Source: a virus. Taken from it: DNA of 64,000 bases. The notes below the pieces were generated by a model, which saw only the letters and a list, made by a program, of their open reading frames with translations, made no database searches and was not told the DNA's origin. Made by a program: the position numbers and the translations under genes. This document shows positions 19,801 to 39,200 of this stretch, piece after piece. How positions within the stretch are numbered: position 1 is the first letter of the stretch; every line of letters starts with the position of its first letter. The stretch lies in the IMG/VR virus record IMGVR_UViG_3300008448_000049, positions 1 through 64,000 of that record, one strand, 5' to 3'.

Positions 19801-22334
19801 AGGGTTACACCTTTGATGATCAGTTGAATGAAGCTTTTGTGGACATTAAAGACTTCTTGCGTTTAGGCAGAGACAAAATGCGTATTGTTAATACAATAAA
19901 CACTTTGAGTAATCCTGATATGTTTGAGTACTATAAAGGTATTCAGTATGAAGTTCAAAAAATGAGACAAGCTCAAAAACTTGAGAAGCGTAAAGAAGCA
20001 TTGGAGACATTTGAAAAAATGAAAGATGACAATGACATGCTTAATGAGATTTTTGATAATCAAGCTTTTGTTAATCCAGAAGACATTGATAAACTAAAAG
20101 AGTTTAACATTGTGGATTTTTATGACGCTTCCTCCAATAACCTAGAACTTATAAAACCAGGTACAGAAAAATATAATACGTTACTTGAGATTGTTGAAAG
20201 ATATGCCCGCTTAGCTAATAAAACTACAAAGGGTAAAGAGATTAAAGAAGCTGGTACATCTGCTGAAGCTAGAGAGATGAGTAAGTACAACGCATCATCT
20301 AGAAAAAAATATGAAAGAGATAAGCGCTCTTATGAAGATCATGCTAAAGAATTTGGGTTTGATCCTACAGCTGACAAATCAAATGTACCAGCACATGATG
20401 TATTAAGAGCAATAATAAATGGTAAGTATTCTACACCAAGAGAGAAAGCTTTAGCTAGACGTATGCTTACTGTGGTTAAGCCAGACACCAAAGTCACTTT
20501 TGTTAACAACCATTCTACACCAGGATCTTATAATGGAGCAACTGATGAGACTGTAGTAGATGCACGTTACTCATCTGATGATTATAGACAAGGTGAAAAA
20601 GGACACCCAATTGAGCATGTTATCTTGCATGAATTAGTACATCAAGTTACAGTAAAAGGTTTAAATACAGACCCTAAGTTCAAAGCTGATATTGAAAAGT
20701 TATTAGCGGAAGTTAAAAACTATATAAGAACACCTGAAGCTCAACAACAATTTGGTGCAAAACCTTTATACGGTTCAATGAATGCTGAAGAGTTTGTGGC
20801 TGAAGCGTTGTCTAATGATACGTTCCAGGCTATGCTTAGTAACATTCCTTACGCCGCTACAGGGAAATCTATATGGGAAGAGTTTACTGACACGGTTAAA
20901 CGTTTTTTAACAAAGATATTTGGCCCTAGAGTTGATTCATCTTTATTGGATGAAGCAATGTATTTGATAACAAATAAGCTAGAAGCTGATATAGCTGGGC
21001 CTGCTGCATCTACTACAGGTGCTATAGGGGGAACAGCAACTACCACAATAACTCGTAGTACTCCTATTAGTATAATCCAGAAAGATGCTTCTGTATTATT
21101 TAAAAACTTAGCTGCTGATTACCGCGCCTATTATAAGGTAAATAAAGGTGGTACTTTAGGATTAACAGATGATGAACTAGTAGACTCTCAAGAGTTTGAA
21201 GATTATGTTCAAACATCAGACAGAGCTGGTAAAATTATTGATGACTACAATGGTGGTAAACCTGCAACTAGAACTACAACAACTACACCAGCAGCTTCTA
21301 CTAAGAAGACCACAGCTCCGGCAAACAAATGGTCCGCCGGTAAACGGTATAGCTTTACAGGAACCGTACAAAGAAAAGACGGTACCTCAATTGATCTTAC
21401 TAAAGTTGATATGGAGGTTGTTGAAGACCAGGGTGCTAATGTAGATCCTGACACAGGTATAGCAGAACGTATCATTGTATTAAAAGATTTAGCTACAAAT
21501 GAAGAATATATTATTGACTTAGGCACACCAGCAGGTAAAGCTGTTGTTGTGGAAGATATAGCTGCTGCTCCTGTGACAGATCCTCATTTTGAAAAGTGGT
21601 CTAACATAATTAAAAATGCTGTAAGTGCTAAAGAGCTTTATAAAATAACTCAGCAGATTGATGCTACAACGGAAGGAATGAGTCCAGAACTAATGGATTT
21701 ATTAGGTATGAGAAGAGCAGAACTTCCTCAGATAGATGAACCTGTAGGTGATGACTTATCTGAACTTTATAATGAGATTAAATCCGGTGAACAACTTGAA
21801 GAGTTTATGGATAAGGCCCGTGAGGTTTTAGCTACAGGAACCATTGGTCAGAAGAACTATTACAGCTCTGTATTCGGTGAGAACTTTAACTCTGCTTTAC
21901 TTGATAAACTAGAGCAGAACAAAAAAGTAGAACTGGCAAACAAGTTAGAATTTACTGATTTAATTCCTGACACAATTGTGTTATTAAATAACGGATATAC
22001 TAATATGATTGTTGGGAAAATGGATGGAAATACTGTATATTTGCTAACCCCTCAAGACAAACAAACTAACAATATGGCAAACGCAATTAAGGTGAACCCT
22101 GATGATTATAAAAATATAATCAAGTACATTGTGGGTGACTTTGTAGCTGATGTAACAACAGCTCCAGATCTTACTGAAGATGAAAAAGCTGATGTTGAAT
22201 CAGAAGGTAAAGCTTTAAAAGATAAAATTGATCCTGCTGAGGCTTTAGCAAGAGCTAAAAAAAGTGCTGAAACACCTACTGAGCAAAGAAAAAAAGATAT
22301 AAGTAATAAATTCAAATCTTGTAAAATTAGTTAA
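16884..22334 (+). CDS. Giant virion-associated polyvalent protein with a zincin-like domain (1816 aa)
   Basis: The main recognisable feature is a zinc metallopeptidase-like motif: H1249-E-L-V-H1253 in a hydrophobic helix (EHVILHELVHQV), followed about 50 residues later by a glutamate-rich helix EEFVAEAL (1302-1309) that could give the third ligand. The N-terminal third has Trp-rich and Gly/Ala-rich hydrophobic stretches (about 145-250) that could touch membrane. The middle (about 600-1150) is Lys/Glu-rich helix. A Thr/Ala/Pro linker lies near 1455-1480. It sits directly before the RNA-polymerase giant, two bases apart. Known polyvalent phage proteins combine proteases with other domains and are injected with DNA; a processing or host-attacking protease role is inference. 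Confidence 0.72.
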   Translation: MAEEVTPQPTEPVLQSAPITPGLPEQGSSTDPLAILRAEMPVVNSLIPQGLPPSINANLNIQGSYQTGPNPGAKKAGTMDYALALRDMMQDPNWSQDKYKYGRTYSYGAGSKNMNFDRYYNHPKFKELGFSPYRDNETHYNENSSWWDDFNRMKGQWAGLAWGGAKSVWGDEKEAHENMEKGLAIGSSTRGGVGGWVTNFGINSAYTVGIMGELIVEDAALAAVEVASFGTATPEVAYLAATRNAMGIGKIAKALKGTANFIKELKNVDKAKDFFTAAKAWDTTKDIAKWANPLERSMETTSHLLNNTHGFNNLKSSAKISKSFGSFYRDMRELNVAHSEAKLEGEGAASEFQDNMIDKFYAENGRMPEGDEAKRIFDTAQSLKASVIGANDLTIYFTNKLAFEDLFEGIRPGAQLAKAFTEVGTEGFLKVAGKAFKKATAATAGNALLQEGKRTGAQRVANFLTKSPYLPWSRKYMVGNIGEALQENAQEVITQGYSSYYDKIYSDPVSAVHASVLSEIGKGIGDQFSLKGLDTFAQGYLMGSLIQGGGAAIKNSKNLGVRGTKAAAYGVTGGKVGAEWNSETEADRVKQQREKNKNEVMNAGNTIAEHALTYGAGDERSSFAAAIKLTNQEKKNRLAEGDKVGAHDMGDETQINHFEILAKTGNMKLITDHVDDMLSLEDKDLADAYNLDESQAGDARKKLQTLKSRAETYQARYDKAKKINPNPHNPWMFDPKKYPDAYEDEYFKYMAHEQAVSDILFATEDFDRTGERMVGIANKLAGVDSAYQNILNTSRGGIPMANVTAVDLTALIDPIQSIDTKTSLQNQITAMELGTPEQKAKAVELKEQLDFLETWQGDVETYLLHLDSDHKANISEEERMLRKERARMLPGATIIEKYSGQEFKIETDAKGELYINKNGKLKKFNKNNYTVSKDAPGVSPEYLEVEGDELNNAIARLHGSFQKYIKNVAKMNKGYTFDDQLNEAFVDIKDFLRLGRDKMRIVNTINTLSNPDMFEYYKGIQYEVQKMRQAQKLEKRKEALETFEKMKDDNDMLNEIFDNQAFVNPEDIDKLKEFNIVDFYDASSNNLELIKPGTEKYNTLLEIVERYARLANKTTKGKEIKEAGTSAEAREMSKYNASSRKKYERDKRSYEDHAKEFGFDPTADKSNVPAHDVLRAIINGKYSTPREKALARRMLTVVKPDTKVTFVNNHSTPGSYNGATDETVVDARYSSDDYRQGEKGHPIEHVILHELVHQVTVKGLNTDPKFKADIEKLLAEVKNYIRTPEAQQQFGAKPLYGSMNAEEFVAEALSNDTFQAMLSNIPYAATGKSIWEEFTDTVKRFLTKIFGPRVDSSLLDEAMYLITNKLEADIAGPAASTTGAIGGTATTTITRSTPISIIQKDASVLFKNLAADYRAYYKVNKGGTLGLTDDELVDSQEFEDYVQTSDRAGKIIDDYNGGKPATRTTTTTPAASTKKTTAPANKWSAGKRYSFTGTVQRKDGTSIDLTKVDMEVVEDQGANVDPDTGIAERIIVLKDLATNEEYIIDLGTPAGKAVVVEDIAAAPVTDPHFEKWSNIIKNAVSAKELYKITQQIDATTEGMSPELMDLLGMRRAELPQIDEPVGDDLSELYNEIKSGEQLEEFMDKAREVLATGTIGQKNYYSSVFGENFNSALLDKLEQNKKVELANKLEFTDLIPDTIVLLNNGYTNMIVGKMDGNTVYLLTPQDKQTNNMANAIKVNPDDYKNIIKYIVGDFVADVTTAPDLTEDEKADVESEGKALKDKIDPAEALARAKKSAETPTEQRKKDISNKFKSCKIS

Positions 22335-22336
22335 AA

Positions 22337-25300
22337 ATGAGTTGTTTATCACAAGAAGAAATAAGAGATGCCCTATTTGATTTAGTAGCTGGTGATTTAT
22401 ATGATAAAGCTAAAGAAGATCAGGTAATTGATTTACCCGCATATATAAAAGAAGTATATGAGTTTGTTAAAGAATCATCAGAAGATGAAGCTACAGCTAT
22501 TAGTGCTGCAGCAATGGCACCAACAATAGTTAAATTAATTCTTGCTTTAGATACTGAATTAGTTGATAAAATTGAAACAAAAAATCCAGATCTTGAAAGT
22601 GATAACCTGGCATTAATAAAAAAATTTAAGAACAATACAGATGCTGTAAGAGAAACTGTTGGTGCAACTAAACCTGTTGCTATTGATGATTCAACTCTTA
22701 AGTCTTCCGCTTCTATAAAAGTTACAGATGAAAGACCTACTTCAAAAATCAAAGAGAGTTTTAATAGATTTATGACTTGGGCCTTCCAGACTTTCCGTGT
22801 AGATATAAAAAATTATGAGAATCCAAAAGATAATGATTGGATGAAGTCAAAAGTTGAAGAAGCTTTAAACTTTACAGTACAGAAAAAGATTAACCAAGCT
22901 TTATTTGAACAAGGTATCAATGACAGTTCTGAGATGAAACTTGATGGTGTTGAAGGTGGTGTGTACTTAAGAGCTATGAACGGTGATACCTTAAGATTAA
23001 ATTATGCACCATTGATTCCTAAAACTGAAAAAGGTTGGACACCATTCTTATCTAAGTATGATATTTACATGGTCCTTACCAATGAAGCAGGTGTGCCTAT
23101 ACAATTTGATCCAGAAGGAACCGTAGTTAAAGATGGTCAACTCTCTTACTTAAGAGCTAAGAGTAAAGCTCCAATGGACGCTAAAGGTAATTACATAAGT
23201 CATGAAGATAAAGAGGCTTTAGAAAAATACATTAATAAAAATGTAAATAATGATCCTTATTACAGCAGTGCTATATCTAAAAAAACTGGTAGTGAGGCAG
23301 TAAAAGTAATTGCTAAAAGTATTCAAGAGCAGCTTGAGATGATGGCTAAAAGCTATAATCCTCTGTATGGCACTAAAAAGTTAACGGATAAGGAAAATGA
23401 AGAACTTAAAAATAGAGCTACTGATGAATTAAAAAAAGAGTATGCTGTACTAGAAAAGATGCGTGATTATGTTATAGCTAATTCTAGTAACCCTGATAAA
23501 TTTTTATTGTCTGTAATGACAGGTACTTCTGAAGGGTTTGTTCCATACTCACCTTATGTAACAACGCCACTTAAAGATATTAATTTTGAACAAGGTTTCC
23601 AACCACGTGTTATAAAAGAAATTCAATCAGCAACATCTAATGTATATCAGTCTGGTGTTTATTTTGATTATCCAAATATTGATGAGCCAATATCTATTAA
23701 TAAAAAACCTTTAGTACAACAAGATGACATTCTTAACAGTGTTATTGATTTATTCACAAAAGATTTGTGGATGACTATTAACGGTGTGCTACAGCCTGTT
23801 CCTATTGGTAGAAGAGAAGAACTGATTAATCAGTTTATTGTGAATGATTTACACCATGTGTATTTCATGGCAGATAGAAAAAGTGGTACTATTAATTATG
23901 AAGATAAAGATGGTACTATAAACATAATGGTTGACGGAACACGTTACCCTTTAAAGTTTGATGGATCTAAGTCTGGTCAAGAAGCTGCAGCTGCTGCTAT
24001 AAGAAAACAGTTAAGTACAGGCATGATTGTTTATGATGAGAACGGTAGATATCCTGAAGACAAATCAATTAATACTAAACCAAAAGCATTGAAAGCTGCT
24101 AGTGCTTTAAATACTCAAATTGTATATGCTGAGTATGAAACTGATGAGAATGGTATAAAAACTATAAAGCCTAATGATTTAGAAAGAGTTAATAAACCTG
24201 GTGTGTATGCAATACAAAAAGGTACTAATTATGATTTTGTAGGAACTAATGGACAACCTGAGTATGATTATTTTCATGCAAATGTACCATCAATTGTTAT
24301 TGTTGACAAACTTATTGAGCCAGGCTATGATGAAATCTCTTTTACACAAGAGGGTGATAAAGTTATTTTAAATACAAAAAATGCATCATACAAAGACTTT
24401 CTTAAAAATAATTTCACAACTAATGCTGTTCCTTACAACTATAATAACACAGATGAGAAAGGAAAGATTGAGGTTGTAAATTCATCAGTTACTTTTTCAC
24501 CTACTGCTGAGTCTATGATTAAGTTGGCAGGAGGAGAAAAAAACTCAGGAGCTGTAGATAACCAAGAAGAAATTGCTAGATTAAGAGCAGAAGAGCAAGA
24601 GTTACTAAAAAGAGAAATACCTAACATAGATGCTTATAAAGTAGATGGTAAAGTAAATCCTTTCTTAATTCCAACTACGGAAGAACGGGAGAAGTATGAA
24701 AAGATTTGGGAAGACTATGATAAAAAAATAAGCCCTTTATTAAAGTTTGCACCAGCAGAACCAAAAGCTGCAGAGACTAAACCGGCTGAGCCAACTATTG
24801 AACCATTAACTACAAAGACTACAGCATCATTATCTCCAGAGGATATATTAAATAGCCTTAATGACATGAGTAATGAATCTGACTTTGAAAGAAATTCAAG
24901 GTTAAAGTTATCAGGTGCTCGTGGTTCTAAAGAACAATTAGATGCTGCTGCAGAGTGGTATGCTAAAAGTCCATTAAAAGAACACTTTCCATTCAAAGTT
25001 GTACTAGCTGCATTGAATGCGCAAAAACCTGGACCAGCTGCTAGGTGGGCCGTTAATGGTATTACACTATTTAGATACTTTAATAACCCAGATGTTAGCG
25101 GTGACTATACGGATTTATACCATGAAGCATGGCACGGATTTACTCAGACATTCCTTACACCTGAAGAGAGAGAAGCAATGTATGAAGAAGCGCGTAAGAA
25201 AAAAGGTTCTTTTACAGACTACAATGGTAAGCGCGTAGCTTTTGCTGATGCTAAATGGAAACAACTAGAAGAATATTTAGCTGAAGACTTTAGAGCATAC

Positions 25301-28300
25301 ATGATGTCTGGCGGTAAGATCAAAGACAAAACGTCATCAACTAAGAACGGTATCTTTACAAGAATCATGAACTTCTTGAAGGAGCTTTTCTCCGGTGTAA
25401 ACATCAATGATGTTAATTATAGTCCACTAGGTATTCCTAAAATACAAGCAATGTATGAGAACTTAAAGCTTGGTAATCTTTCTGGATACAACTTCAATGT
25501 TGAGAATAGAGATAAGACTATAGGTGCTTTAGATCATGCTATGATTGCTAGTAAGAATGATGAAAACATGCCTGAGCTTGATTTTGAGACTACTAATAAA
25601 ATAATGAGTAGTGTTAACTCAATCATATCTTCATATACTAATACAAGAAATTTAAAAGAAGATACAAGAGTACATAGACAAGTATATAGTTACACAACTA
25701 CCTTGATGAAAGATAAAACAAGAGCTCTTGAAGTTTATAAGTATATTAAATCTATTTTTGAAAATGAGGTATTGTCTAATTTGAATAGAGATTTAGCTGC
25801 TGCAAAAGCTAAGCCGGATAATGAGTATGAAGTTATAGCTCTTGAACAAGATATTACAGGTATACAATGGGCAATTAATAACTTTGGTGATCTTACAAAC
25901 TTAGCAAATAACAAAGATGGCAAAGATGTAATAGGTTACCACTTAAAAACATCCAGGTTGTTGACAGAGGAGGATAGAGCAGAGTTACTTGACGAGGTTA
26001 GTGAAGTTGATGCTTTAATAAAAGCTAGTGAAAAGTTTGACAGACCAGGTAATGATGTTGGTTCATATGATATGGCACCGCCTGAGGTTAAGTATGTACT
26101 AAGTACAATTCACAAGTGGGAAGGTACAAAGCCTGTTATGAACAGTTTTGGTATTCAAGAGCTTAGTGATCCTTCTATTGTATGGAATAGAATATCTAGA
26201 ACACTTAAAGGTACAATGAGTGCTTCAGAGATGTATGAAAAATTACAAGCTGCAGCAGGTAAAGATCCTATTATCGCAGACCTGTTAAAAAAATTAGGAC
26301 CTGTTAAAACTCACACAGCAGCTGAAACAGATTTATGGATTAAGTTCTGGACCGTGTTTAACAAAGCTGAGATTCCTTTAATGCAGATGACTGTGTTTAG
26401 AGAAAAAGATATTGAGGGTCGTGAGCTTGATGAGTACTCAATCAAGATTGGATCTAATAACTCAGTGTCTCGTATAGCTCAAACACGTTGGACAAATACA
26501 TTTAGTACAGTAACTTCTGATTATAGAAAGAGAGATCCTCAAAAAGCTAATGAGATTTATCTTGATGTGAAAAAAGTAATTGAACAGTTTGGTGTAAAAG
26601 ACCGTACTGGTAAATATATTTTTGAAGATGCTAAAAATTCTTATGAGTTTTTTAGAGCAATTGGTATAGAGCTTAGTGATTCTGATGAACTAAGAGATAT
26701 AGTTAATAAAGGTAAAGGTAAAGCCACTAGGATATTTGATAGATTAAACAATATCTTAAACAGAGGTACTGATAAGATTTATAATCTTAAAGACATATTT
26801 AAAGAGTATCCAGCTGTTGATAAGATTGCGGCTTTAAGTTCTGAAACAACATTAACTGACCTAGCTAATGAAGAAGTTAAATTTGCAGACTACGCGTCTA
26901 ACTATGCTGTAAATAATGCTGAAGGTAATATCCAATTTGAACAAAGCTTACACAACAGTATAAGTATTATGATCAGTGCCATAAACAGTTCAAAAGATTA
27001 TGCTGATCTAATTAGTAAACCTTTTATGGCTCACTTAGATATTGATAAGAACCCGTTTGCAAAAGCTTCTGTCTGGTTGAATTCCATATATAAAATGGAT
27101 GAATATAAGAAAGGCAGTACTACTGAGGTTGGGGTTAAGCGTGATCAAAAATCTGATATCAATCTTAAGGCTGCAATCAACATGTCTAATCTATCTGGTG
27201 TGTCAATTGTAAGTGATAAGAGAGATGAAGGTGTTGCCTCAGCAAGTGCTGATGAATTTACAAAATTAATTCTTGACTTTCACGTGAGTAATGTGATAGG
27301 TCGTCCAGAGTTAATGCGTCATGCTGATAAGGGTACTTCCTTCTCTTTATGGTTAAGTGATATAATAACGCCAGGATCATCAGATAATAAATCTTATGTA
27401 GATACAATTGATTTTATTAATCAGCCTTTAGATAATGGTAGTCAATACGTGCCGGGTTATGGTAATGCATCACGTGTTTTAAAAAAATATATTGATGCTG
27501 AGATGCAAAGGATAACTAAGTTAAAAGCTCTTAAAGATCAAAAGGATTTAATATATGACGCTAAATATTTAAAGGAGGGTCAAAACTTTGTGATTTTTGA
27601 AGATGTACTTAGTCCTAAGACACGTGCATTCTTATCTAATTATCCTACTTTAGCAGAAGCTGCAGCAGTTGATCCAGATATTAGTAATGATATTGATAGA
27701 GAAATAGCCAAGTACTTTGATAATCAATCCAAACAAGTTGGTAGGATGATGAACAGTGCTAATTATATTAGTAAGAGTTTAATGGTTAAAACAGCAACTG
27801 ATGCTAATAAAGCTAATAAAGCAAACGTAACTAATAAAACTGTTAAAAATGCTTTAATAAAATCTTTTGTTGTAAACAGCTGGATACACAATATTGAGTC
27901 AATGGCTGTTATCTATGGAGACATTGCACAATACAAATTAGAAAAAGAAGAGTTCCATAAGCGTAATGCAGGTGCTGGTTCTACTGGTGGATTAATTGCA
28001 AGTGATCCAGTATTTATTGAGTATGTAAATAATAAAAGCCGGTTATCTAATATTCCTGGTCGGTCAAATACATATGCCGAGAAAATGAAAATCTTTGGCA
28101 AGGATGGTCAAACAAAGAAATTAGCTAGTGATGGTTCATTCCAGTCAGCTATACTTGAAGATAACAATATACGTTCTGAGTACTTTGAAGACATTGCTAA
28201 TGCTTTAATAGACTCTGAAGAAAAAAAACTAGGTAGCAGAGAAAAAGCTATTAAGAAAGTTTTAGGTTTTGAAGTTGACAAGGAAGGAAAAGAAACAGGT

Positions 28301-31300
28301 AAGCTAGGTACAATAGATGAGCCATTTAAAAATGGTAGTGTATATGCTTTTACTGAGATGAATGAAGGTGATGCTCAAGGCTGGATTACTTTTGACTTTT
28401 ACAAAGCTACTGCAATATTAGAAGGATCATGGACACCAGCTCAAGAAAAACTTTATAATAAAATCATAAATGAAGAACCTGTTGATTACAGTGAAGTGCT
28501 TAACTTCTTCCCTACTAAAAAGTATCAGTACTGGGGCCCTGTCCAACATAAAGACAAAGATGGTAAAGCTATTGACGGCCCGCCGTTAACAGCTTTTTAT
28601 AAGTTTTCTTTATTCCCATTAATACCTAATGTAGTTAAAGGTAAAAATCTAGGTGCTTTACATACACGGATGATGGAAAAAGGTATTGACTTTGCTATGT
28701 TTGAGTCAGGATCTAAGATATCAAACTTTACAAGAATCAACGCTGATGGTAAAGCTGATAAAGATAAATTTTATTCTAGTGTTGATGGTCAAGATAGAAC
28801 AGTAGATGCTACAGGAGATATGGTACCTAATACTGTGTTCTTACAATTCTTAAAAAAGCAATTAGAGATAGCTCCATACTTTAAAGGTAAGGTTACATTC
28901 CCAACTCAAATGCGTAAGTTAATTGAGAATGGTTTAATGGAAGCTGGTGTACCTACAGATTATGAAATGCACTTGCCTGTTAAGCAAAGAGAAAAACTTT
29001 GGAGATCACTTTCTCTAGAAAAAAAATTAGAAAATTCTCAGTTTTATAGACTTGTTAAAAACTATGAGAAAGATCTTTCTGATTTAACTAAGCTTAAGAT
29101 GAAAAAGCTTGAGGCTGAAGCTAGCATTAAACGTGATGAAGATGGTAATGTTATATTCAATGAAAAACTTGCTGAGTTCATTATAAAAGAATTAGACAGA
29201 CAAGACTTAGCTGAGCATGAGATAGGATTTATTAAATCAGGAACAAACAATACACTTGCTCATGATTTATCTTATTCATTATCTGCAGAGAAGATTGAGA
29301 AGATCTTAAACTCTATTGTAGTTAAACGTCTTGTCAAACAGAAGTTTAAAGGGGAAGGTCTGATCCAAGTATCAGGTGCTGGTTTTGAAGATACTCTGCG
29401 CGGCAAACTTACTGATGAAGAAAAGGCTAAGTACGGTACTAATGGATTAGCTTTTTATAAAAGAAAAGGTGGGCCAAATGGAACAACCTCAGCAATGAAA
29501 GTTAAGATTGCTTTACAAGGTAGCTTTGAGAACTTGCTTTACTTGAAAGATAAAGATGGTAAAGAGATTGGTACTATTGAAAGATTAAATCAACTGCTTA
29601 AAGATGAGTCTTGGTTAGATATAGGTGATCACCGTAAAATGGTTAGCATCACTGGACCACGTATTCCTACTCAAGAGAATAACTCTATGGAGTTTGCTGA
29701 GGTTTATGAGTTCTTACCTAGAGAAGCTGGTAACATTGTTATACTTCCTTCTGAGATTGTAGCTAAATCTGGTGGTGACTTTGATATTGATAAGATCACA
29801 TTCATGATGCCTAACATTTCCTCCGGTATAAATTGGGCTAGCTGGTTAGAAGAAGGATCTGGTAAACGTGAAGAGTTACAAAAATCTACTACCCTAGATC
29901 TATCAGCAGAGAATGTTAAACGTGTTATTGATAACAGAAAAGCAGATGAACTATCTGTTGAAGATCAAGCTGTATTAAGAATACTAGCTGAAAACTCTGA
30001 TAAAAATGTAAAGTTTCCATTTGACAGTAAAACTGAAGAGGGTCTTGAGAACAGAATATTAGATGATATGAAAAACATATTGTCTCTTAAAGAGAACTAC
30101 GTGAGTCTTGTACGTCCTAATGGTACTGATATTGTTAAGCCTCTTGCTGATGAGCTTTCATCTAAGGTTATGGATTATAATCCTAAGAAGCGTTTATATG
30201 ATGCACCTAATAGTTCTCGTATTGCGGGTACCCGTTTGTTTGAGATTCCGTACAACATGTATAAGCATACATCAAACAGTATTGGTAAACAAACTTTAGG
30301 TCTTGGTGCTGTAGATAATACTTTTAATACAGTGTTTAACCGTATTGGTGCTAGAATGAACTACGAGTATTGGGGTAGCAGGAATGTTAAAAGACGTTTG
30401 GATTTATTATTTAATCACAATACTTTACAAGATGATCAAGGCCGTGATGTAATTTCATTATCTCACTTGATGGATGTTAATAATGATAACAGTATATCTT
30501 CAATAATTGGTCAGCTTATTAATGGCTGGGTGGATATTGCTAAGGATGCTTGGATCTTTAACTTACAAGGGAACAAAGAGATATCACCATCTTTATTATT
30601 TTTAGTTCAAGCTGGTGTACCTTTAAAACAAGCTGTGTATTTTGTATCTCAACCTATTATCAGAGAGTATGTAAAAGAAATGCAGCAAGCTAAAAGCACA
30701 TTTGCTGGACCTATGGGTAAAGGAACTGATAATCCTAACTTGTTTAGAGGTGAAGCGCGTAAAGTAATCTTTAAAAAACTAGGTTATGACGCATCTCAAA
30801 TGGCTGTCTTTAATGAGAATAATGAGAAGAAGCAAGAGTTTTTAGATAAACGTACCTTAGAACTTACTGATAAGAAAACAGGATCTGAGATTGATTTCTT
30901 TAATCCTGATAAAGTTGAAGCTAATTTAAAAAATAAAATTGATGCTTACGCTAATGCTGTTAAAGAGCAACAAGAATCATCAGATTCAGAAGCTCCATTG
31001 AATTACAATTATGACGTTAAAGATGAGGCTATATTCTTACACTTCCTTGAAGTAGAAGAGATGACTAATTCAGCAACTAAGTTTAAAATGGCTTTAAATG
31101 TTGATACAACTAAAACAAACAACATCTTTCAAGCTCAAAATAAAAATGAGATCATTAAAGATTTACAAACTGATGGTAAATTACCAGCAGAAATTGTAAA
31201 ACTTATCCAAGAGGAATCTCCAATAGGCAGCTTTTTTACACAAGACTTTCAAATTGGTTTATGGAAAAATCTATTTAAGTTGAGAAATGACGATGATCTT

Positions 31301-34300
31301 AACAAGTGGATCTTGAATAAGACTAGACAAATGGGCTTTAAAGATGAGGTTGATGAAACCTTTGGTGATGATGAGAGATTTGTAAACAACTTGAGAAATG
31401 ACTGGATAAGCTTTTTATTCCAAAATCAGATACGCAAATTTGATATAGATAAGGTTAAAGATTATAAAGGTCTTGTAATTCAGGATACTCTTGGTGTTAA
31501 GTTAGCACCTAGTATTAAGTATGGTGTGTTTGTAGCTCCGGATAAAACGGGAGCACTGACTGTTTATATGGATAAAGTAAAGTTGAGACAAGACTTTGCA
31601 AAACTATCTAACAGCACAAGCTTAGAAACTGCAACCCTTCTTCCTGACGGTACAATAATTAAACCGGCTGATGTTGATGCTGCAGCGTTCCCTACACCTG
31701 ATACCTATTACAAATTTGTAATTGAGAGAGAGTTATTAAGAGCTATGTATCCTGGTAAAACAAAATGGTCAGTATTATTAGAACGTGCTGATGTTTCCCG
31801 CAAATTGAAAGACGCATTAGAATCTGGGCCAACTTTTGAAGGTGAATCAAAACAGAAGAGAGAAGCTCGTATTAATACTGAAGTTTATGAAGAGACTCTA
31901 CGTGACATGGCTTTAGAGAATACTTATAACACTTGGAAGATGTTCCAAAGTCGTACCTCTATGGCTGATCAATTTAATGAGATTGCTGCATTATATCCAG
32001 AGCTTAGAAAAAACTACAGCTTAATGAATATACTTACAGGTACAATCCGTAATGATAAAAACAATTCCAACCGTATTGGTAACTTACAATTACTGGATTC
32101 TCTTTTAGATGGTACTAAGTTGAACTTGTTACATCAGAACTTAAAAGACATGTCTGATCCTACTAAGTTAAGAATCAATGTTAAGTCTGCTCAAGAGAGA
32201 ACTCGTATTGCTGAATTCTTTAACAAGTTTGGTCTATATGCGTTTTTACAATCAGGTTTAAATACTAGTGGAAGATTCTCATTAACAAGAGTAGTTCCTC
32301 AAGAGATGTTTACTGCAATGATGAGTGAATACATGGGTGACTTTATGAAGAACATGAATGAGCTTACCTTTGAACGTTACTATACAAAGTTTAAAGCTAT
32401 CAATAGTAGAGCTGGTTCAACATCATACCGTGATTACACAGTGCCTGAATTTGATATGGCTGCAGATAAAAATAAAGTTGTTGACAATCCTGTTGGAAGT
32501 GCCAAAGAATTAATGTTTAACGAAAAAAAATCAAGAATAGATAATTTTTATCTTGACAATGCTGGTAACAAACTTTATCATGCTAATGAGTTTAGCCTTA
32601 ATAAAGAAGATACTATGCAAGCTATAACTATGACTCAAGCTGCTGACATACTTGAAAGCAGACCTACAGAAGTAATTATCTTTAATGGTACTGATGGAAC
32701 TACGGCTGGTCAAGGTACAAAAGGTGAGGCTGCATTTGATGCTTCCCTATCTACACACAGTAATCTTATTGCATTCCCTGTTAAAAAGAGTTATGAAATG
32801 ATAAGTGGTAATATACCAAACAGCGCACTTATAACTGATATCTCAATAGAAGAAGCTGAAAGAATGAAAGCTGAGATTAAACAACAGGAAAAAATCATTA
32901 ATAACCTTGTTTCAGGTCCTAAACTAGAAGTGGGAGTATATGCTGAATACAAAGGTGATAATTACATTGTGACTAAAAAGCTTGATAATGGAACATGGCA
33001 ACTTTATAATCCTGACATAGGTAGTAAACTAGCAGTTAGTCCTAGCAACTTTGCATTACTTATGGATAAACCTATTTCTCTAACCAATAGAGATGTTAAG
33101 TACTGGGTAAGTCCATTACACAATAATGCTATTATATCTCAAGTAAGCAATAACAAAATGAACTGGCCTGATGAGAATGGTGTTAAAAGAGAAATAATGG
33201 CTAAGGTACAAAGTCAAAGTTCTAACAAAAATGCTGATCAACAAAACATTACTCAACCTGCTCAGAATACTTTTAAATTTGCTGACGGAACTATTATTGA
33301 TACGCCATTCAAACTTAATGAGCAACAGGAGAAAGCGTTGTTATCTCTTGAGAATTTTTATAACAAGCCAGGAGAGTATGATAATCAAATTACCTTGCTT
33401 GGTTATGCCGGTACAGGTAAGACTAGTATCATCACAATCTTTGATAACTATTTAAAAAAGAAATTTGTTAAACCTCTATACAGTTCTCCAACACACAGAG
33501 CTAATGCTGTAACTAAGATGAAGAATCCTAAAGCTGCAGTATATACTTTACATAAATTGTTTGGTTTAAAAGGTCAAATCAAATTTGAAGATGGTGATTA
33601 TGATTTAAGAGATTTGAATTTTGCAGCATTTGATAAAGATGGCAAGCTTAATAAAAACGCTAAAGTTCAAAAGGGTGATATCTTAATTGTTGATGAAGCA
33701 TCAATGGTTAATGACGCGCTTTATGATTTCTTAGAGAAGTTTAAACAGATTCTTAATCTTAAGATTATTTACATGGGTGATCCAGCTCAGTTAAAACCTG
33801 TTAAGCAAAAAGACTTGTCTAAAACTTTTGAGAAAGGAACACAGTTACAACTTACCAAAGTTGAAAGAACAGGTGACAATCCTATATTAGAAGAAGCGAC
33901 CAACTTGAGAAATGGTAAAGATTTTAATTACCAGACTAAAATGATTGGGGAGCAAGGTGTTGAATACTCTGATGAAGCTAATTTCACAAACAGAATAATT
34001 GGAGAAAACTACACAAGTGATGAGTTTAAAGATAACAAGCTTTATTTTAGAATTCTATCTGCAACCAATGCTGTTCTTCCAGGTATTAACAGAAGAGTAA
34101 GAGAGTTACTTTACGGTGATGAAGCTGATAAACAACTTGTGAAAGGTGATTTATTGATGGGTAATAATAACTTTGATATAGATTATAAGACCAAGCAACC
34201 ATTGATTATAAACAGTGGTGACTATATAGTTGATAGCATTGAGGAGTCTGTAAAAACATTACCTGTAGGTAACAAGACAATCAGCTTTAATGGTTTTCAA

Positions 34301-36262
34301 GTTAGACTTAAGAATGTATTAGATCCAGAAGAGTCTGCTAAGAGTGTATTTATTGTAAGCAATAATGAGTCAGATGAGAAGTTAAAAGATTTCATGAATG
34401 AGATTGACCGTTTAAATAAACAAGCTGAAGATTTTAGAAATCGCGGACAGTTTAGTGCTTCTGCTCAACTTTTTGCTGAGGCAAATGAACTTCAGTCTAG
34501 TCTTGCATTTATGAAAGATCTAGTATCTGATAACAACAAAGTAAAAGTTAAAAAGACTTTAGACTATGGTTATGCTCACACTATCCACAAGTCACAGGGA
34601 GGAACCTATAACAAAGTACTAATACTTGCTGATACTATTGATAGTCATAGAGATCCAGAAACACGTCAACAACTTAAGTATGTTGCAATGTCAAGAGCTT
34701 CTGAAAAGGTATATGTATCTACTAGTCATGAGTTAGGTACACCAATCATACGTGATGGCCTTGTCGCTCCTGGTGACGTAGCTCCAACTGTAGAGCCTGT
34801 TGAAAGTAAGCAACCACAAGCTTCTACAAGTACTAAACCTGATATTATTTTACCAATTGGTACTTCAGGCAGTGGTAAATCTACTTGGATAAAATCTTTA
34901 CCTAAAGGGCAATTTACTTTAATATCTCCTGATGAAATGAGAGTGGAGTTTACCGGAGATATGAATGATAAATCTAAAGATGATGAAATATATAAGGCTG
35001 TAACAGAAAGAGCTATAAAAGCTGTAAAAAGTGGCAAGCAAGTAATCATTGATACTACTAATCTTAAGAAGGAAAGAAGAAGACCATTCATAGAAGCTGT
35101 CAAAAAAGCAATGCCTAATGCAAATATTCAGTATAAGCTTATGCCATTGAATGCAGAATTAGCTAAACAAAGAATAAAAGCAGATATTGCTGCAGGAGTT
35201 AATAGAGCAAATGTATCAGATGAAACCATAGATAGACATGCTGCATCATATAAAGAGATGTTAGAAGATATTAAATCTGAAGATATGTCTAATTATGATA
35301 CTCAGCCACAAGCTTCTATAACTACTGATAAGTTTGCTAAGAAGAATATATTTACTGTAAAGCCTATACAAACAGCTGATACAAAAGCTATTATTAAAGC
35401 AAGTATAGCTACTCAGTTTATAGGATTTGGTGAAGGTATTGAAAGAAGCTCAACAGAAAGTTATAGACAACAAGTAGGAGCATTAGCTAATACAGGTAAC
35501 TACTCAAAGGATGATGTTATATTTGTGTCTATTGGTGGTAAAAGACCTGCTAACAATTTAGAACTCAGGAAAGCTCAACAAGATAGAACTATTAGAGAAG
35601 CTTTAAAAGCTATTGAAGCAGGTGCTACTATACTTACTGATAATATAAATTACATACATACTGATAATAAAGGTAATCTTCAAAATGTAAATATGAGTGT
35701 AGAAGAATTTACTAAAACACAAGGTTTGTATAATGAAGGTGAAAAAAGACTTGCTAAAAATCTTGAATCTAAAGGATATAACTACTCTGAAATAACAGTA
35801 GATGGTCAGCTTATTGGTACATGGAGTAAGCCACAAGAAAGTAACATACCACAAGATACGCGTAATGGTGAGGACGTGCAGGATGATAGTAAAACTCCCC
35901 GTCCAATTAACGGTATGGTCATGGACCCCTTCTTTAAAAAGAAAATTGATAAGACTATACAGTCTATGCAACAGAAAAAGAATGCGGGTATGACGCTTGA
36001 CTTTCCTGTTAATGGTATTGGACAGCACATGATTGGAGCTGACCCTAACACTGGAAAATTAATTGGTGATATTAAGCCTATTGCATTATCAAGTTTCGTA
36101 TATTTGTCTGAGCAGCTATTTGAGAAATTTGGGTATGTTAATCCTAACTATGAAAAGGTACTTGGATACATTGGGGAACAGAGCCCGATCCAAGCTGCTT
36201 CTGAAGTTACTGATGACATGCTTGACACAGCCCTTAGCTTTTGCTTTAACAATATAGTATAA
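22337..36262 (+). CDS. Giant multi-domain virion RNA polymerase with zincin, SF1 helicase and kinase domains (4641 aa)
   Basis: Domains in order: (1) zincin-like H929-E-A-W-H933 plus EEYLAED (978-984); (2) RNA polymerase, with GPRIPTQ at 2440-2446 and GGDFDID at 2479-2485. The spacing and sequence recall NRAPT...NADFDGD of cellular beta' subunits, and DFDID is the catalytic motif of the virion RNA polymerase of phi14:2. (3) SF1 helicase (about 3670-4130): Walker A GYAGTGKT 3689-3696, DEAS 3786-3789, GDPAQ 3814-3818, HTIHKSQGG 4081-4089 and a following AMSRA. (4) Polynucleotide-kinase-like P-loop GTSGSGKST 4175-4183 with DTTNL 4239-4243. (5) An unassigned domain (about 4355-4510). All motif residues are intact. 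It is probably packaged and injected to transcribe early genes. Whether it is cleaved into parts is unknown. Confidence 0.88.
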   Translation: MSCLSQEEIRDALFDLVAGDLYDKAKEDQVIDLPAYIKEVYEFVKESSEDEATAISAAAMAPTIVKLILALDTELVDKIETKNPDLESDNLALIKKFKNNTDAVRETVGATKPVAIDDSTLKSSASIKVTDERPTSKIKESFNRFMTWAFQTFRVDIKNYENPKDNDWMKSKVEEALNFTVQKKINQALFEQGINDSSEMKLDGVEGGVYLRAMNGDTLRLNYAPLIPKTEKGWTPFLSKYDIYMVLTNEAGVPIQFDPEGTVVKDGQLSYLRAKSKAPMDAKGNYISHEDKEALEKYINKNVNNDPYYSSAISKKTGSEAVKVIAKSIQEQLEMMAKSYNPLYGTKKLTDKENEELKNRATDELKKEYAVLEKMRDYVIANSSNPDKFLLSVMTGTSEGFVPYSPYVTTPLKDINFEQGFQPRVIKEIQSATSNVYQSGVYFDYPNIDEPISINKKPLVQQDDILNSVIDLFTKDLWMTINGVLQPVPIGRREELINQFIVNDLHHVYFMADRKSGTINYEDKDGTINIMVDGTRYPLKFDGSKSGQEAAAAAIRKQLSTGMIVYDENGRYPEDKSINTKPKALKAASALNTQIVYAEYETDENGIKTIKPNDLERVNKPGVYAIQKGTNYDFVGTNGQPEYDYFHANVPSIVIVDKLIEPGYDEISFTQEGDKVILNTKNASYKDFLKNNFTTNAVPYNYNNTDEKGKIEVVNSSVTFSPTAESMIKLAGGEKNSGAVDNQEEIARLRAEEQELLKREIPNIDAYKVDGKVNPFLIPTTEEREKYEKIWEDYDKKISPLLKFAPAEPKAAETKPAEPTIEPLTTKTTASLSPEDILNSLNDMSNESDFERNSRLKLSGARGSKEQLDAAAEWYAKSPLKEHFPFKVVLAALNAQKPGPAARWAVNGITLFRYFNNPDVSGDYTDLYHEAWHGFTQTFLTPEEREAMYEEARKKKGSFTDYNGKRVAFADAKWKQLEEYLAEDFRAYMMSGGKIKDKTSSTKNGIFTRIMNFLKELFSGVNINDVNYSPLGIPKIQAMYENLKLGNLSGYNFNVENRDKTIGALDHAMIASKNDENMPELDFETTNKIMSSVNSIISSYTNTRNLKEDTRVHRQVYSYTTTLMKDKTRALEVYKYIKSIFENEVLSNLNRDLAAAKAKPDNEYEVIALEQDITGIQWAINNFGDLTNLANNKDGKDVIGYHLKTSRLLTEEDRAELLDEVSEVDALIKASEKFDRPGNDVGSYDMAPPEVKYVLSTIHKWEGTKPVMNSFGIQELSDPSIVWNRISRTLKGTMSASEMYEKLQAAAGKDPIIADLLKKLGPVKTHTAAETDLWIKFWTVFNKAEIPLMQMTVFREKDIEGRELDEYSIKIGSNNSVSRIAQTRWTNTFSTVTSDYRKRDPQKANEIYLDVKKVIEQFGVKDRTGKYIFEDAKNSYEFFRAIGIELSDSDELRDIVNKGKGKATRIFDRLNNILNRGTDKIYNLKDIFKEYPAVDKIAALSSETTLTDLANEEVKFADYASNYAVNNAEGNIQFEQSLHNSISIMISAINSSKDYADLISKPFMAHLDIDKNPFAKASVWLNSIYKMDEYKKGSTTEVGVKRDQKSDINLKAAINMSNLSGVSIVSDKRDEGVASASADEFTKLILDFHVSNVIGRPELMRHADKGTSFSLWLSDIITPGSSDNKSYVDTIDFINQPLDNGSQYVPGYGNASRVLKKYIDAEMQRITKLKALKDQKDLIYDAKYLKEGQNFVIFEDVLSPKTRAFLSNYPTLAEAAAVDPDISNDIDREIAKYFDNQSKQVGRMMNSANYISKSLMVKTATDANKANKANVTNKTVKNALIKSFVVNSWIHNIESMAVIYGDIAQYKLEKEEFHKRNAGAGSTGGLIASDPVFIEYVNNKSRLSNIPGRSNTYAEKMKIFGKDGQTKKLASDGSFQSAILEDNNIRSEYFEDIANALIDSEEKKLGSREKAIKKVLGFEVDKEGKETGKLGTIDEPFKNGSVYAFTEMNEGDAQGWITFDFYKATAILEGSWTPAQEKLYNKIINEEPVDYSEVLNFFPTKKYQYWGPVQHKDKDGKAIDGPPLTAFYKFSLFPLIPNVVKGKNLGALHTRMMEKGIDFAMFESGSKISNFTRINADGKADKDKFYSSVDGQDRTVDATGDMVPNTVFLQFLKKQLEIAPYFKGKVTFPTQMRKLIENGLMEAGVPTDYEMHLPVKQREKLWRSLSLEKKLENSQFYRLVKNYEKDLSDLTKLKMKKLEAEASIKRDEDGNVIFNEKLAEFIIKELDRQDLAEHEIGFIKSGTNNTLAHDLSYSLSAEKIEKILNSIVVKRLVKQKFKGEGLIQVSGAGFEDTLRGKLTDEEKAKYGTNGLAFYKRKGGPNGTTSAMKVKIALQGSFENLLYLKDKDGKEIGTIERLNQLLKDESWLDIGDHRKMVSITGPRIPTQENNSMEFAEVYEFLPREAGNIVILPSEIVAKSGGDFDIDKITFMMPNISSGINWASWLEEGSGKREELQKSTTLDLSAENVKRVIDNRKADELSVEDQAVLRILAENSDKNVKFPFDSKTEEGLENRILDDMKNILSLKENYVSLVRPNGTDIVKPLADELSSKVMDYNPKKRLYDAPNSSRIAGTRLFEIPYNMYKHTSNSIGKQTLGLGAVDNTFNTVFNRIGARMNYEYWGSRNVKRRLDLLFNHNTLQDDQGRDVISLSHLMDVNNDNSISSIIGQLINGWVDIAKDAWIFNLQGNKEISPSLLFLVQAGVPLKQAVYFVSQPIIREYVKEMQQAKSTFAGPMGKGTDNPNLFRGEARKVIFKKLGYDASQMAVFNENNEKKQEFLDKRTLELTDKKTGSEIDFFNPDKVEANLKNKIDAYANAVKEQQESSDSEAPLNYNYDVKDEAIFLHFLEVEEMTNSATKFKMALNVDTTKTNNIFQAQNKNEIIKDLQTDGKLPAEIVKLIQEESPIGSFFTQDFQIGLWKNLFKLRNDDDLNKWILNKTRQMGFKDEVDETFGDDERFVNNLRNDWISFLFQNQIRKFDIDKVKDYKGLVIQDTLGVKLAPSIKYGVFVAPDKTGALTVYMDKVKLRQDFAKLSNSTSLETATLLPDGTIIKPADVDAAAFPTPDTYYKFVIERELLRAMYPGKTKWSVLLERADVSRKLKDALESGPTFEGESKQKREARINTEVYEETLRDMALENTYNTWKMFQSRTSMADQFNEIAALYPELRKNYSLMNILTGTIRNDKNNSNRIGNLQLLDSLLDGTKLNLLHQNLKDMSDPTKLRINVKSAQERTRIAEFFNKFGLYAFLQSGLNTSGRFSLTRVVPQEMFTAMMSEYMGDFMKNMNELTFERYYTKFKAINSRAGSTSYRDYTVPEFDMAADKNKVVDNPVGSAKELMFNEKKSRIDNFYLDNAGNKLYHANEFSLNKEDTMQAITMTQAADILESRPTEVIIFNGTDGTTAGQGTKGEAAFDASLSTHSNLIAFPVKKSYEMISGNIPNSALITDISIEEAERMKAEIKQQEKIINNLVSGPKLEVGVYAEYKGDNYIVTKKLDNGTWQLYNPDIGSKLAVSPSNFALLMDKPISLTNRDVKYWVSPLHNNAIISQVSNNKMNWPDENGVKREIMAKVQSQSSNKNADQQNITQPAQNTFKFADGTIIDTPFKLNEQQEKALLSLENFYNKPGEYDNQITLLGYAGTGKTSIITIFDNYLKKKFVKPLYSSPTHRANAVTKMKNPKAAVYTLHKLFGLKGQIKFEDGDYDLRDLNFAAFDKDGKLNKNAKVQKGDILIVDEASMVNDALYDFLEKFKQILNLKIIYMGDPAQLKPVKQKDLSKTFEKGTQLQLTKVERTGDNPILEEATNLRNGKDFNYQTKMIGEQGVEYSDEANFTNRIIGENYTSDEFKDNKLYFRILSATNAVLPGINRRVRELLYGDEADKQLVKGDLLMGNNNFDIDYKTKQPLIINSGDYIVDSIEESVKTLPVGNKTISFNGFQVRLKNVLDPEESAKSVFIVSNNESDEKLKDFMNEIDRLNKQAEDFRNRGQFSASAQLFAEANELQSSLAFMKDLVSDNNKVKVKKTLDYGYAHTIHKSQGGTYNKVLILADTIDSHRDPETRQQLKYVAMSRASEKVYVSTSHELGTPIIRDGLVAPGDVAPTVEPVESKQPQASTSTKPDIILPIGTSGSGKSTWIKSLPKGQFTLISPDEMRVEFTGDMNDKSKDDEIYKAVTERAIKAVKSGKQVIIDTTNLKKERRRPFIEAVKKAMPNANIQYKLMPLNAELAKQRIKADIAAGVNRANVSDETIDRHAASYKEMLEDIKSEDMSNYDTQPQASITTDKFAKKNIFTVKPIQTADTKAIIKASIATQFIGFGEGIERSSTESYRQQVGALANTGNYSKDDVIFVSIGGKRPANNLELRKAQQDRTIREALKAIEAGATILTDNINYIHTDNKGNLQNVNMSVEEFTKTQGLYNEGEKRLAKNLESKGYNYSEITVDGQLIGTWSKPQESNIPQDTRNGEDVQDDSKTPRPINGMVMDPFFKKKIDKTIQSMQQKKNAGMTLDFPVNGIGQHMIGADPNTGKLIGDIKPIALSSFVYLSEQLFEKFGYVNPNYEKVLGYIGEQSPIQAASEVTDDMLDTALSFCFNNIV

Positions 36263-36267
36263 CCAAT

Positions 36268-39200
36268 ATGATAACATGTCCTAATCTTAGTAATCCTACT
36301 GTGAAAGCACAGTGGGATGCTATTGCTAATAACCCTGCTCTAGGTAATAGAGAAGCCATGCGTGAATTCATGGAAGCTGAAATGAATAACAGGCCTATTG
36401 GTACACCTGAACAGGTGATGGCTAAACTTGAAGCTAGGGAAGTAGTAAACCCTATAGCAAGTCATGACAAGTTTGTTGCAGATATGAAAAATATTATAGC
36501 TGCTAAGTCTAATGACCCTGTACTTACTGACCCAGATACACTCTACGGCTTTGCTTCCGTAGTACAACCTATTAATACTAAATCATTATCTGTTACTGAT
36601 AACAGTAACGGCCGTGCTATGGAAGTCTTAAACAAGCTTTCTGAGGCAACAGGCATTAATTACTCTTTCATTACACCGGAGGAAGCAGTAATCATCACTG
36701 CTAATTCCAAGAACCCATACACTATAGGTAGAGCACCCGCATTTTTCCACGGGGGCACTGTATACTTCATTAATGGTATGGTTAATACAGAACTTGCTTT
36801 CCATGAATTTGCTCACCCAATTGTTCGCACTATACAACAGGACAACCCTGTTCTATTTGAAAAACTATATATGGACGCTATTAGAGCTGACCAGACTCTT
36901 TTGGATGAAGCTATTGCAGAGTATCAAGATTTACAAAAGGCACTTGACAATGCTGTTGAAGATGAAGAGAAAGATGCTATCAGACTTAAGTTACAGAAAG
37001 CTGTTGCGGAAGAAGTAATTGTTAAAGCACTTACTAGAGGAGCAATGCTTAAAGAAGCGGGTATTAAACCAAGCACTGGATTAGCTAAAGCACTTAACAA
37101 TATATTAGCTGCTATTAAAAAGATGCTGAGGAGCGTCTTTGGCAATAAAGTAAATGTAGCCAAGTTGGATGAAACTACTTCACTTGACAAGCTTGCCGAG
37201 ATGTTACATGCCGGCGGGAACTTTGTTATAAACACTGAGACTGTAAGCCAGGCGGATGTTGTTGCGTATAATCAAGACTTTCAAAATTATGTGAATGATT
37301 TAAAGCAAGCTACTGAAGGTGACAAAGGCCAAGCTGTGATGGCTATGGCTAGAAGAATTTATGAAGGTGCTACTGATCAAATTGAAATGATTATGAAGAA
37401 CAAGAATTATCAGGAGATGATTAACTTGTTTGCCGATCAATACAACCGTGGTGACTTACAGGAGATGCGTGCTAATGTATCCCGTTATGCCCGTGAGCTT
37501 GAGACCAAAGCTGAATCAATGATTGAAGATATCCAAAAGACTCAGAGTCAGGTACAATCTGTTGTAGGCGCTATGCTCCGTTTAAAAGTCATGATGACTA
37601 AAATGGAAGAGCACTTGAATGAATTAAGAAAGGACGCTACTAATAGAGACAACGTACACAGAGCTTACTACTATGCACGAGTACTTGAGTATTGGCAAAA
37701 GTATATTTCTGAAGCTCAAGATATGATGATTAAAGCAGGTGCCAAATCTGATTCTCCAATGAATCAATTGCTTGGTAGTATAGAAACTTCTATGAAAACT
37801 TCTGCTAAACACATCAACCAGATGAACAATGAAGGTATCTCTGATATCTTATGGGAACAATGGGAGAGCATGTCTAATAGAGCTGAAGAGTTATTTAAAG
37901 ATAAGATTAAAAGATTAGAAGACCGGAACGCTAGCCAAGCTGCAATAAATAAAGAGTACGTTAAATTCTACGGTATGAATAAAGCTGATTATGAGCGTTA
38001 CAAAATGCTTCAGGCTAAACAAGAATCAGGTCAGGATTTAACTTATGAAGAGAGTAAGGATTTAGAGATTGGTAAGAAAGCCAGCTTTGATGGTATAGTT
38101 ATGTCTCGTGAAAAAGTTGCCCGTGCTATTCGTGGTGAGGGAGCAGATGCTAGATACATTGAGTCTTATTTTGAAGGATACCTTTATAGTAGTGACCCCG
38201 TAATTGGTGGCTTTGCTTTGTACTTTAAAAACAACATGACTGAGATGGAAGCTAGAGTACAATCTAGAGTTAGCGGCATGTCGGGAGCACTTAAAGAATT
38301 AATTGATGATGCTGGCATAAACTTTTTAAAACCAGGAGAGCTTGGTAAAAAGATAGGCTTTGTGGATAAGTTTGGATACATTGATAAGAATGGGACTTTC
38401 CAACAAAAAGAAGTATGGGCAATGCTTAATCCTTACAAGGATTATAGATATGATGTTGATAGGTTTAACAATGAGTTAAAAGGTTTACGTGACCGTTATA
38501 ACAGAGACCGTAGTAAAGAGAACCAGGAAGCGTTTGCTGCTAAGCTTGCAGAGAAGAATGCTCACATGCGTAAATGGATGCAACAAGAATACGTTGATGA
38601 GTACTATGAAAAAGATGACTTACTTGGTAAAGATGCATCAGATACTGTAGGACAAAGAGCTAAGTTCTTGAGAGATGAAATCTTTAATAGAATGGAGATT
38701 ATTAATCTTGCAGCTAATAGAGATGACCAGTTAGTAGATAACACTAAAGAGATGGACGATCTGTGGAAAGAGTACAATCAACTGTATTCCTCCTATTACT
38801 TAAACGGACAAAAGAAAACAGGTGTTGATCTTGAAGTTGCCCAACGTTTACAACAACATAGAGATCTTACTCGCAAGTTCCATGAGTATAAACCTAGAAC
38901 TGGTGTATATGAGAATGAACTAGCTAAGAAGGAACAACAGATCCGTGACAACTTAATCTCATTACAATATGAAGAAGGTACTGAAGAGTTTGATGATCAG
39001 TTTGAAGCTTACCGTGATATGTGGATTAAAGCAAATACAGTTACTAAAATTAAACCTGAGTTTTATGAAATACGTTCAAAACTAATTGAGAATCTTAAAG
39101 AGATATTAGGAAGACCTGCAGCTAGACTTAGACAACAATTAAAAGATCTTGAGGCTAAAGGTATTAAAACCGCAGCTGACAGAGCGTTAAAAAAAGACTT

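Follow-up and report, generated by a model that had tools for sequence, protein, structure and literature searches.

Facing terminal cysteines in the virion RNA polymerase cargo of a Crassvirales phage and its relatives point to a probable disulfide-linked protein chain

Main finding

The analyzed stretch of DNA (64,000 nucleotides, hereafter the window) is a part of a 74,132-base virus record and encodes a giant protein, B, which its sequence identifies as the central member of the three-part virion RNA polymerase cargo A-B-C of an uncultured Crassvirales phage. Among the viruses compared, the pattern of cysteines in these proteins tracks the number of polypeptides into which the cargo is split. 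As judged from the sequences, disulfides quite probably link the A, B and C proteins end to end, so that they can be injected as a single chain and released in the reducing cytoplasm of the host. It also seems probable that crassviruses and the phi17:2 group package their cargo as one covalent protein train with redox-switchable end-to-end disulfides, in which splitting, fusing and extra wagons are tolerated.

The giant protein and its gene neighborhood

The virion and cargo genes of the window are on its + strand; on the - strand lies a replication block, in which genes similar to those of DnaG and DnaB are found. The gene of B is flanked by cargo genes similar to those of crAss001 gp47 and gp49 and adjoins the oppositely oriented replication block. 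The features considered below are the following.

16884-22334, + strand: upstream cargo protein A, 1816 aa, crAss001 gp47-like; sole cysteine at residue 1813 (codon 22320-22322)
22337-36262, + strand: giant virion RNA polymerase protein B, 4641 aa, 523.5 kDa; cysteines solely at residues 3 and 4636
22343-22345, + strand: codon of Cys3 of B, the proposed partner of Cys1813 of A
24776-25525, + strand: zincin-like domain of B, with YHEAWH (aa 928-933) and distal EExLAEDFR; motif conserved without change in 33 relatives
28337-31262, + strand: RNA polymerase core of B (aa 2001-2975), with GPRIPTQ and GGDFDID; sequence and Foldseek matches to 6vr4
33014-34726, + strand: payload bay, SF1 Dda/RecD-like helicase (about aa 3560-4130); absent in L006
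34829-35266, + strand: payload bay, polynucleotide-kinase-like P-loop domain (about aa 4165-4310); missing from both L005 and L006
35384-35836, + strand: payload bay, STQFIGFG-type domain with no assigned function (about aa 4350-4500); N-terminal in L019 and L083
35849-36259, + strand: conserved C-terminal tail of B (about aa 4505-4641)
36242-36244, + strand: codon of Cys4636 of B, the proposed partner of Cys4 of C
36268-42084, + strand: downstream cargo protein C, 1938 aa, crAss001 gp49-like; sole cysteine at residue 4 (codon 36277-36279)

The frame of B is open from ATG to stop through 4641 codons with no internal stop, and its motifs start at aa 929 (HEAWH), 2442 (RIPTQ), 2481 (DFDID), 3689 (GYAGTGKT) and 4175 (GTSGSGKS), just as the initial annotation had described them, in a single uninterrupted frame. 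An artefact of assembly or frame reading was rejected as the source of this length, since the long frame is kept in the independent records L005 (4347 aa, truncated at the 5' end) and L006 (3755 aa) and is thus not peculiar to one contig. Profile comparisons served to check the orthology of the three cargo proteins between families, the A-family profile matching crAss001 gp47 with an E value of 1e-32 and the C-family profile matching gp49 with 2e-78.

Several other genes of the window were recognized. The cargo block is immediately followed by an L,D-transpeptidase gene (YkuD_2, 42155-42790); a GIY-YIG/NUMOD1 homing endonuclease (52308-53096) and a DUF2201 metallopeptidase-VWA protein (53866-55086) are encoded further on. 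A 996-aa protein (13891-16881) possesses Cys128 and Cys134 only, and similarly close cysteine pairs (spacing 8) occur in the channel-type cargo of crAss001 (gp45), cr111 (gp030) and DAC15.

Polymerase core and associated domains

The polymerase core of B matched the structure of phi14:2 gp66 (PDB 6vr4) in a profile search with an E value of 2.6e-59, which argues against a chance occurrence of the DFDID motif, while the middle region of B displayed 22-27% identity to Crassvirales RNA polymerases. The DxDxD catalytic motif, GGDFDID, lies around aa 2479-2485, within the homologous core. An AlphaFold2 model of the core (pLDDT 84) retrieved 6vr4 as the best Foldseek match (E 2e-25, TM 0.66 by query), followed by QDE-1; the agreement is at the level of the fold match. 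The profile match and the predicted fold thus uphold the earlier assignment of B to the crAss-like virion-type RNA polymerases, and the structure prediction proposed together with it came out in its favor at the level of the fold match. The phi14:2 enzyme is indeed a separate protein, gp66 being 2180 aa long. Delivery of B as injected cargo, also proposed earlier, is likely by homology to gp47, gp49 and gp50 of crAss001, whose presence in virions was shown by mass spectrometry (PMC10172136).

Apart from the polymerase, the single polypeptide of B contains other effector-type domains, an SF1 helicase and a polynucleotide-kinase-like one, both named in the initial annotation and both recovered by profile searches: the helicase (aa 3562-4127) by PHROG 325 (Dda-like SF1, E 1e-71), Pfam AAA_30 (E 1e-17) and UvrD_C_2 (E 2e-10), and the kinase-like domain (aa 4171-4307) by AAA_33 (E 8e-17) and PHROG 505 (polynucleotide kinase, E 1e-14). 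The zincin domain of the same annotation stood in part. Its motif, YHEAxH with a distal EExxAE, is invariant in 33 relatives, but the region had no sequence match in the PDB, nor did its predicted fold, so that the zincin label stays at the level of the motif.

This motif bears on one alternative to the disulfide chain, namely that B is a polyprotein, made and packaged as one chain, which the zincin would cut into polymerase, helicase and kinase after entry. Conservation of the motif in the clade fits it, and zincin processing was proposed for polyvalent proteins and N4-like RNA polymerases (PMC5512222). However, no cleavage site was found, and B of crAss001 lacks HExxH, which means that self-cutting by B is not general to the order. 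The polyprotein model, moreover, is compatible with the chain and not exclusive of it; as an explanation in its own right we consider it the least probable of those discussed, and very unlikely.

Payload bay of the polymerase protein

The first profile search of public viral contigs yielded 73 relatives, mostly environmental. In the B clade (over 100 environmental relatives), zincin and polymerase occur together in almost every case and form the constant core; the content of the region from the polymerase module to the C-terminal end differs among the relatives. L005, 97% identical to the window in the polymerase, retains the helicase and the STQFIGFG-type domain, with an AlkB-like dioxygenase in place of the kinase. 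From L006 (84% identical), helicase and kinase are both missing. The two relatives share the C-terminal tail with B of the window. Other relatives have NADAR, cpYpsA, ART-PolyVal (L042, L046), HD_4, RNase H or DUF7831 domains, or nothing recognizable. Since the helicase and the kinase vary between near-identical phages and are missing in most relatives, they look like exchangeable payload, and a view of them as integral to polymerase initiation is not supported; the helicase in particular, absent in L006 and most relatives, was rejected as a constitutive partner of the polymerase. By sequence comparison, then, the two domains are optional payload in a bay before the conserved tail, and the helicase lies outside the core polymerase machine.

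Many families of payload domains are linked to nucleic-acid repair or host conflict, and we infer that these domains may play a counter-defence role. NADAR, a domain related to NAD/ADP-ribose, is found in the bay of L022, L031 and L060 and is a candidate counter-defence cargo.

The 4946-aa gp14 of cr118_1, annotated in GenBank as 'exonuclease V', matches the zincin-RNAP profile and is thus probably a polymerase with a helicase payload. In cr108_1 the polymerase gene is split within GSD|FDID (21380-21671) by a gap of ~290 nt; the catalytic motif is probably interrupted by an intron here. Crass-like polymerase cargo blocks also occur inside long bacterial contigs of Chitinophaga sp. YR573 (L100, a contig of 4.83 Mb), Spirosoma oryzae (L108) and Spirosoma terrae (L109), which suggests integrated or lysogenic relatives.

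Cysteines at the ends of the cargo proteins

The cysteine pattern was first noticed on reading the C-terminal ends, as nearly every protein ended near a cysteine. It is absent from the initial annotation, yet of all features it has the most direct bearing on the idea, put forward there, of polymerase and helicase being injected as one chain. In the window, B possesses two cysteines (3 and 4636), A one (1813 of 1816) and C one (residue 4). Chance placement was rejected for B: two random cysteines would fall within its first 8 and last 12 residues with a probability of about 9e-6, calculated for this protein alone.

The first count was performed on 35 loci under 70% identity. A C-terminal cysteine was present in all 27 A proteins and in all 34 B proteins, an N-terminal one in 26 of 27 B proteins and in 34/34 C proteins, while none of 28 C proteins had a cysteine at the C-terminal end. 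The sole exception, B of L020, is a frameshift, with MVNC present in the other frame. In L028 the protein counted among the 27 is an insertion that carries the two cysteines, and it is preceded by the true A, which itself ends in cysteine. The interior of B contained 3 cysteines in 131,145 aa, as compared with 0.78% in control ORFs of the same loci, and the payload bays and tails of the relatives had none in 40,618 aa (317-536 expected), captured helicase, AlkB and NADAR modules included.

After the rule had been stated, 135 further loci were fetched. At the upstream joint both cysteines were found in 48 loci and neither in 60, with one discordant case; at the downstream joint the respective numbers were 115, 1 and 3. 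Profile-defined C proteins of these loci had the N-terminal cysteine in 70/70 cases and the C-terminal one in 0/55. On inspection, the discordant joints (L142, L143, L169, L186) can mostly be read as trivial (a cysteine just beyond the cut-off, a missing ATG start or a small unrelated neighbor), but in L143 no A gene is in view.

The rule holds in every Crassvirales group sampled, including cultured phages. In phi14:2, cysteine is the last residue of g067, residues 3 and 2179 (of 2180) of g066 and residue 3 of g065, with no further ones. In crAss001 it occupies position 2339 of 2341 in gp47, positions 5 and 2404 of 2412 (plus 1334) in gp50, and position 5 in gp49. DAC15 and cr111_1 have the same terminal cysteines plus a few extra internal ones, their number in some B proteins of crAss001 and DAC15 type being 1-3. 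Epsilon-group crAssE-Sib fits the rule as far as its broken annotation permits. In crAss002 (gp33, near 7270-7370), MSC occurs ~32 codons past the annotated start, restoring the N-terminal cysteine; the annotated start is probably that much too early. Translation coupling was rejected as the cause of the pattern, since in crAss001 and DAC15 the A gene is on the opposite strand, and gp47 of crAss001 still keeps its C-terminal cysteine.

Fused and inserted cargo proteins

Natural fusions and insertions show what happens to the cysteines when the number of polypeptides changes. Where A and B are in one gene (Suoliviridae; cr55_1, cr118_1, cr4_1, cr10_1, L101, L113), the A/B cysteine pair is lost; where B and C are in one gene (cr3_1, cr127_1, L102), it is the B/C pair. 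In the Chitinophaga contig, the A, B and C profiles all match one 5485-aa ORF with zero cysteines; another single ORF, of 4726 aa, comprises B and C and is likewise free of them (L069), and none were found in the 4206 aa seen of L187. In B proteins lacking the N-terminal cysteine, DxDxD is located ~850 residues further in, as A+B fusions should show. Proteins inserted between B and C or between A and B, on the other hand, possess cysteines at both ends. At each cargo joint the cysteines face each other, and the outward ends of A and C have none.

With a tree built from 181 polymerase cores, agreement was found for 145 of 147 loci. Four independent changes at the A/B joint could be paired on the tree and all four were concordant; the sign test gives p = 0.125 owing to the few independent events.

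These data also bear on the reading of B as an ordinary giant Crassvirales virion RNA polymerase with an accessory helicase and kinase, in which the cysteines would be left over from conserved terminal motifs and play no part in joining. Giant crAss-like RNA polymerases of up to about 6000 aa are indeed known (PMC10136315), and B and C show partial conservation in their terminal segments. Passive remnants, however, would not be expected to vanish at fused joints or in all-in-one proteins, nor to appear at both ends of inserted proteins while the unpaired ends of A and C go without. We regard this explanation as very unlikely.

A disulfide-linked chain as the probable form of the cargo

Cysteines facing each other at every break, with none at the free ends and none where there is no break, are what is expected if a disulfide replaces the peptide bond, and such a substitution at each cargo break is what we propose. 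In the oxidised virion the facing terminal cysteines would pair as disulfides, giving one chain, which for A-B-C of the window would comprise 8395 residues (about 0.95 MDa). This chain would be threaded in order through the narrow tail, and the cytoplasm of the new host would then reduce the links, so that the polymerase and the co-delivered helicase, kinase, AlkB-like and other enzymes could be freed and active at once. Removal of all other cysteines, those of the payload modules included, would prevent wrong bonds. Capsid assembly takes place in the reducing cytoplasm; oxidation would therefore have to come after lysis or be helped. Mature crAss001 virions possess inter-subunit disulfides in the tail, and the cargo of this phage must pass constrictions under 50 Å, partly unfolded (PMC10172136). 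N4 vRNAP and T7 gp15/gp16, which are delivered as free proteins, have no cysteines at all.

Alternatively, the terminal cysteines might pair the proteins non-covalently or in the infected cell, for example through a thiol or metal contact that brings A, B and C together as a polymerase complex, the virion then containing no covalent chain. The same pairing logic would fit any joint contact, and an association with the polymerase is common to the three proteins (PMC10172136). Against this, two thiols per joint are too few for a typical metal site, the phi14:2 vRNAP protein was reported to be active in vitro (PMC10136315), and near-total removal of other cysteines, in the payload as well, is a prediction of wrong-disulfide avoidance. 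Such non-covalent pairing appears unlikely. For the disulfide chain, the masses of the linked tryptic peptides that it predicts in crAss001 were computed: gp50-gp49, ICGANTLYEL-SS-CAIIPQVR (M 1992.017, 3+ 665.013), and gp47-gp50, CNS-SS-CITTNSTIEELAAK (M 1812.823, 3+ 605.282).

Relation to known systems

Giant crAss RNA polymerases, N4-like zincin-RNAP fusions and polyvalent proteins are already known (PMC10136315, PMC5512222). The window shares with phi14:2 gp66 (6vr4) and crAss001 gp47/gp50/gp49 the gene block, the polymerase core and fold, the A-B-C set and the terminal cysteines, but its B protein is about twice as long as gp66 or gp50, with an extra N-terminal zincin-like module and the C-terminal helicase/kinase payload bay. 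Polyvalent proteins (Iyer et al., 2017, PMC5512222) are multidomain and co-delivered with DNA; in them, RNA polymerase or helicase is combined with domains of the zincin, ADP-ribosyltransferase and repair types. B resembles them in joining several effector-type domains in one polypeptide, and ART-PolyVal is carried by its relatives L042 and L046; that study covers N4-like RNAP fusions and mentions neither crAss phages nor cysteines. The N4 virion RNA polymerase gp50 is, as predicted for B, a giant ejected enzyme fused to a zincin-like domain (PMC5512222), but its polymerase is of the T7 type, and it is a single free protein, Cys-free and hence with no terminal cysteines. The P23-45 vRNAP is a two-barrel enzyme inside a 5002-residue protein with a metallopeptidase domain, a layout comparable to the one predicted for B; unlike B, it is fused to the tape-measure protein, and no chain of separate proteins is described for it (PMC10770324).

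Cellulophaga phages phi17:2 and phi4:1 (Lightbulbvirus) are placed outside Crassvirales in the record taxonomy, and C alone is detectably related (E 5e-11). The same terminal-cysteine pattern is seen in phi17:2, with a C-end cysteine in gp039, cysteines at both ends of the inserted gp038 and an N-end one in gp036.

The terminal cysteines of crAss cargo are unmentioned in PMC10172136, PMC7886860 and PMC10136315; the words cysteine and disulfide are absent from the latter two, and in PMC10172136 disulfides come up solely in connection with the tail and gp57, the word cysteine not being used. Full-text literature searches returned no report of terminal cysteines in this cargo, though an earlier mention elsewhere is possible.

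Significance

Crassviruses are the most abundant viruses of the human gut, and the question addressed by the terminal-cysteine rule is how a near-megadalton polymerase cargo passes in order through a channel of <50 Å. The rule is cheaply testable on already cultured phages and possibly on existing mass-spectrometry data. If true, it would amount to a novel design for a protein delivery train, the payload bay being where evolution loads the wagons, and might offer a principle for engineered protein delivery.
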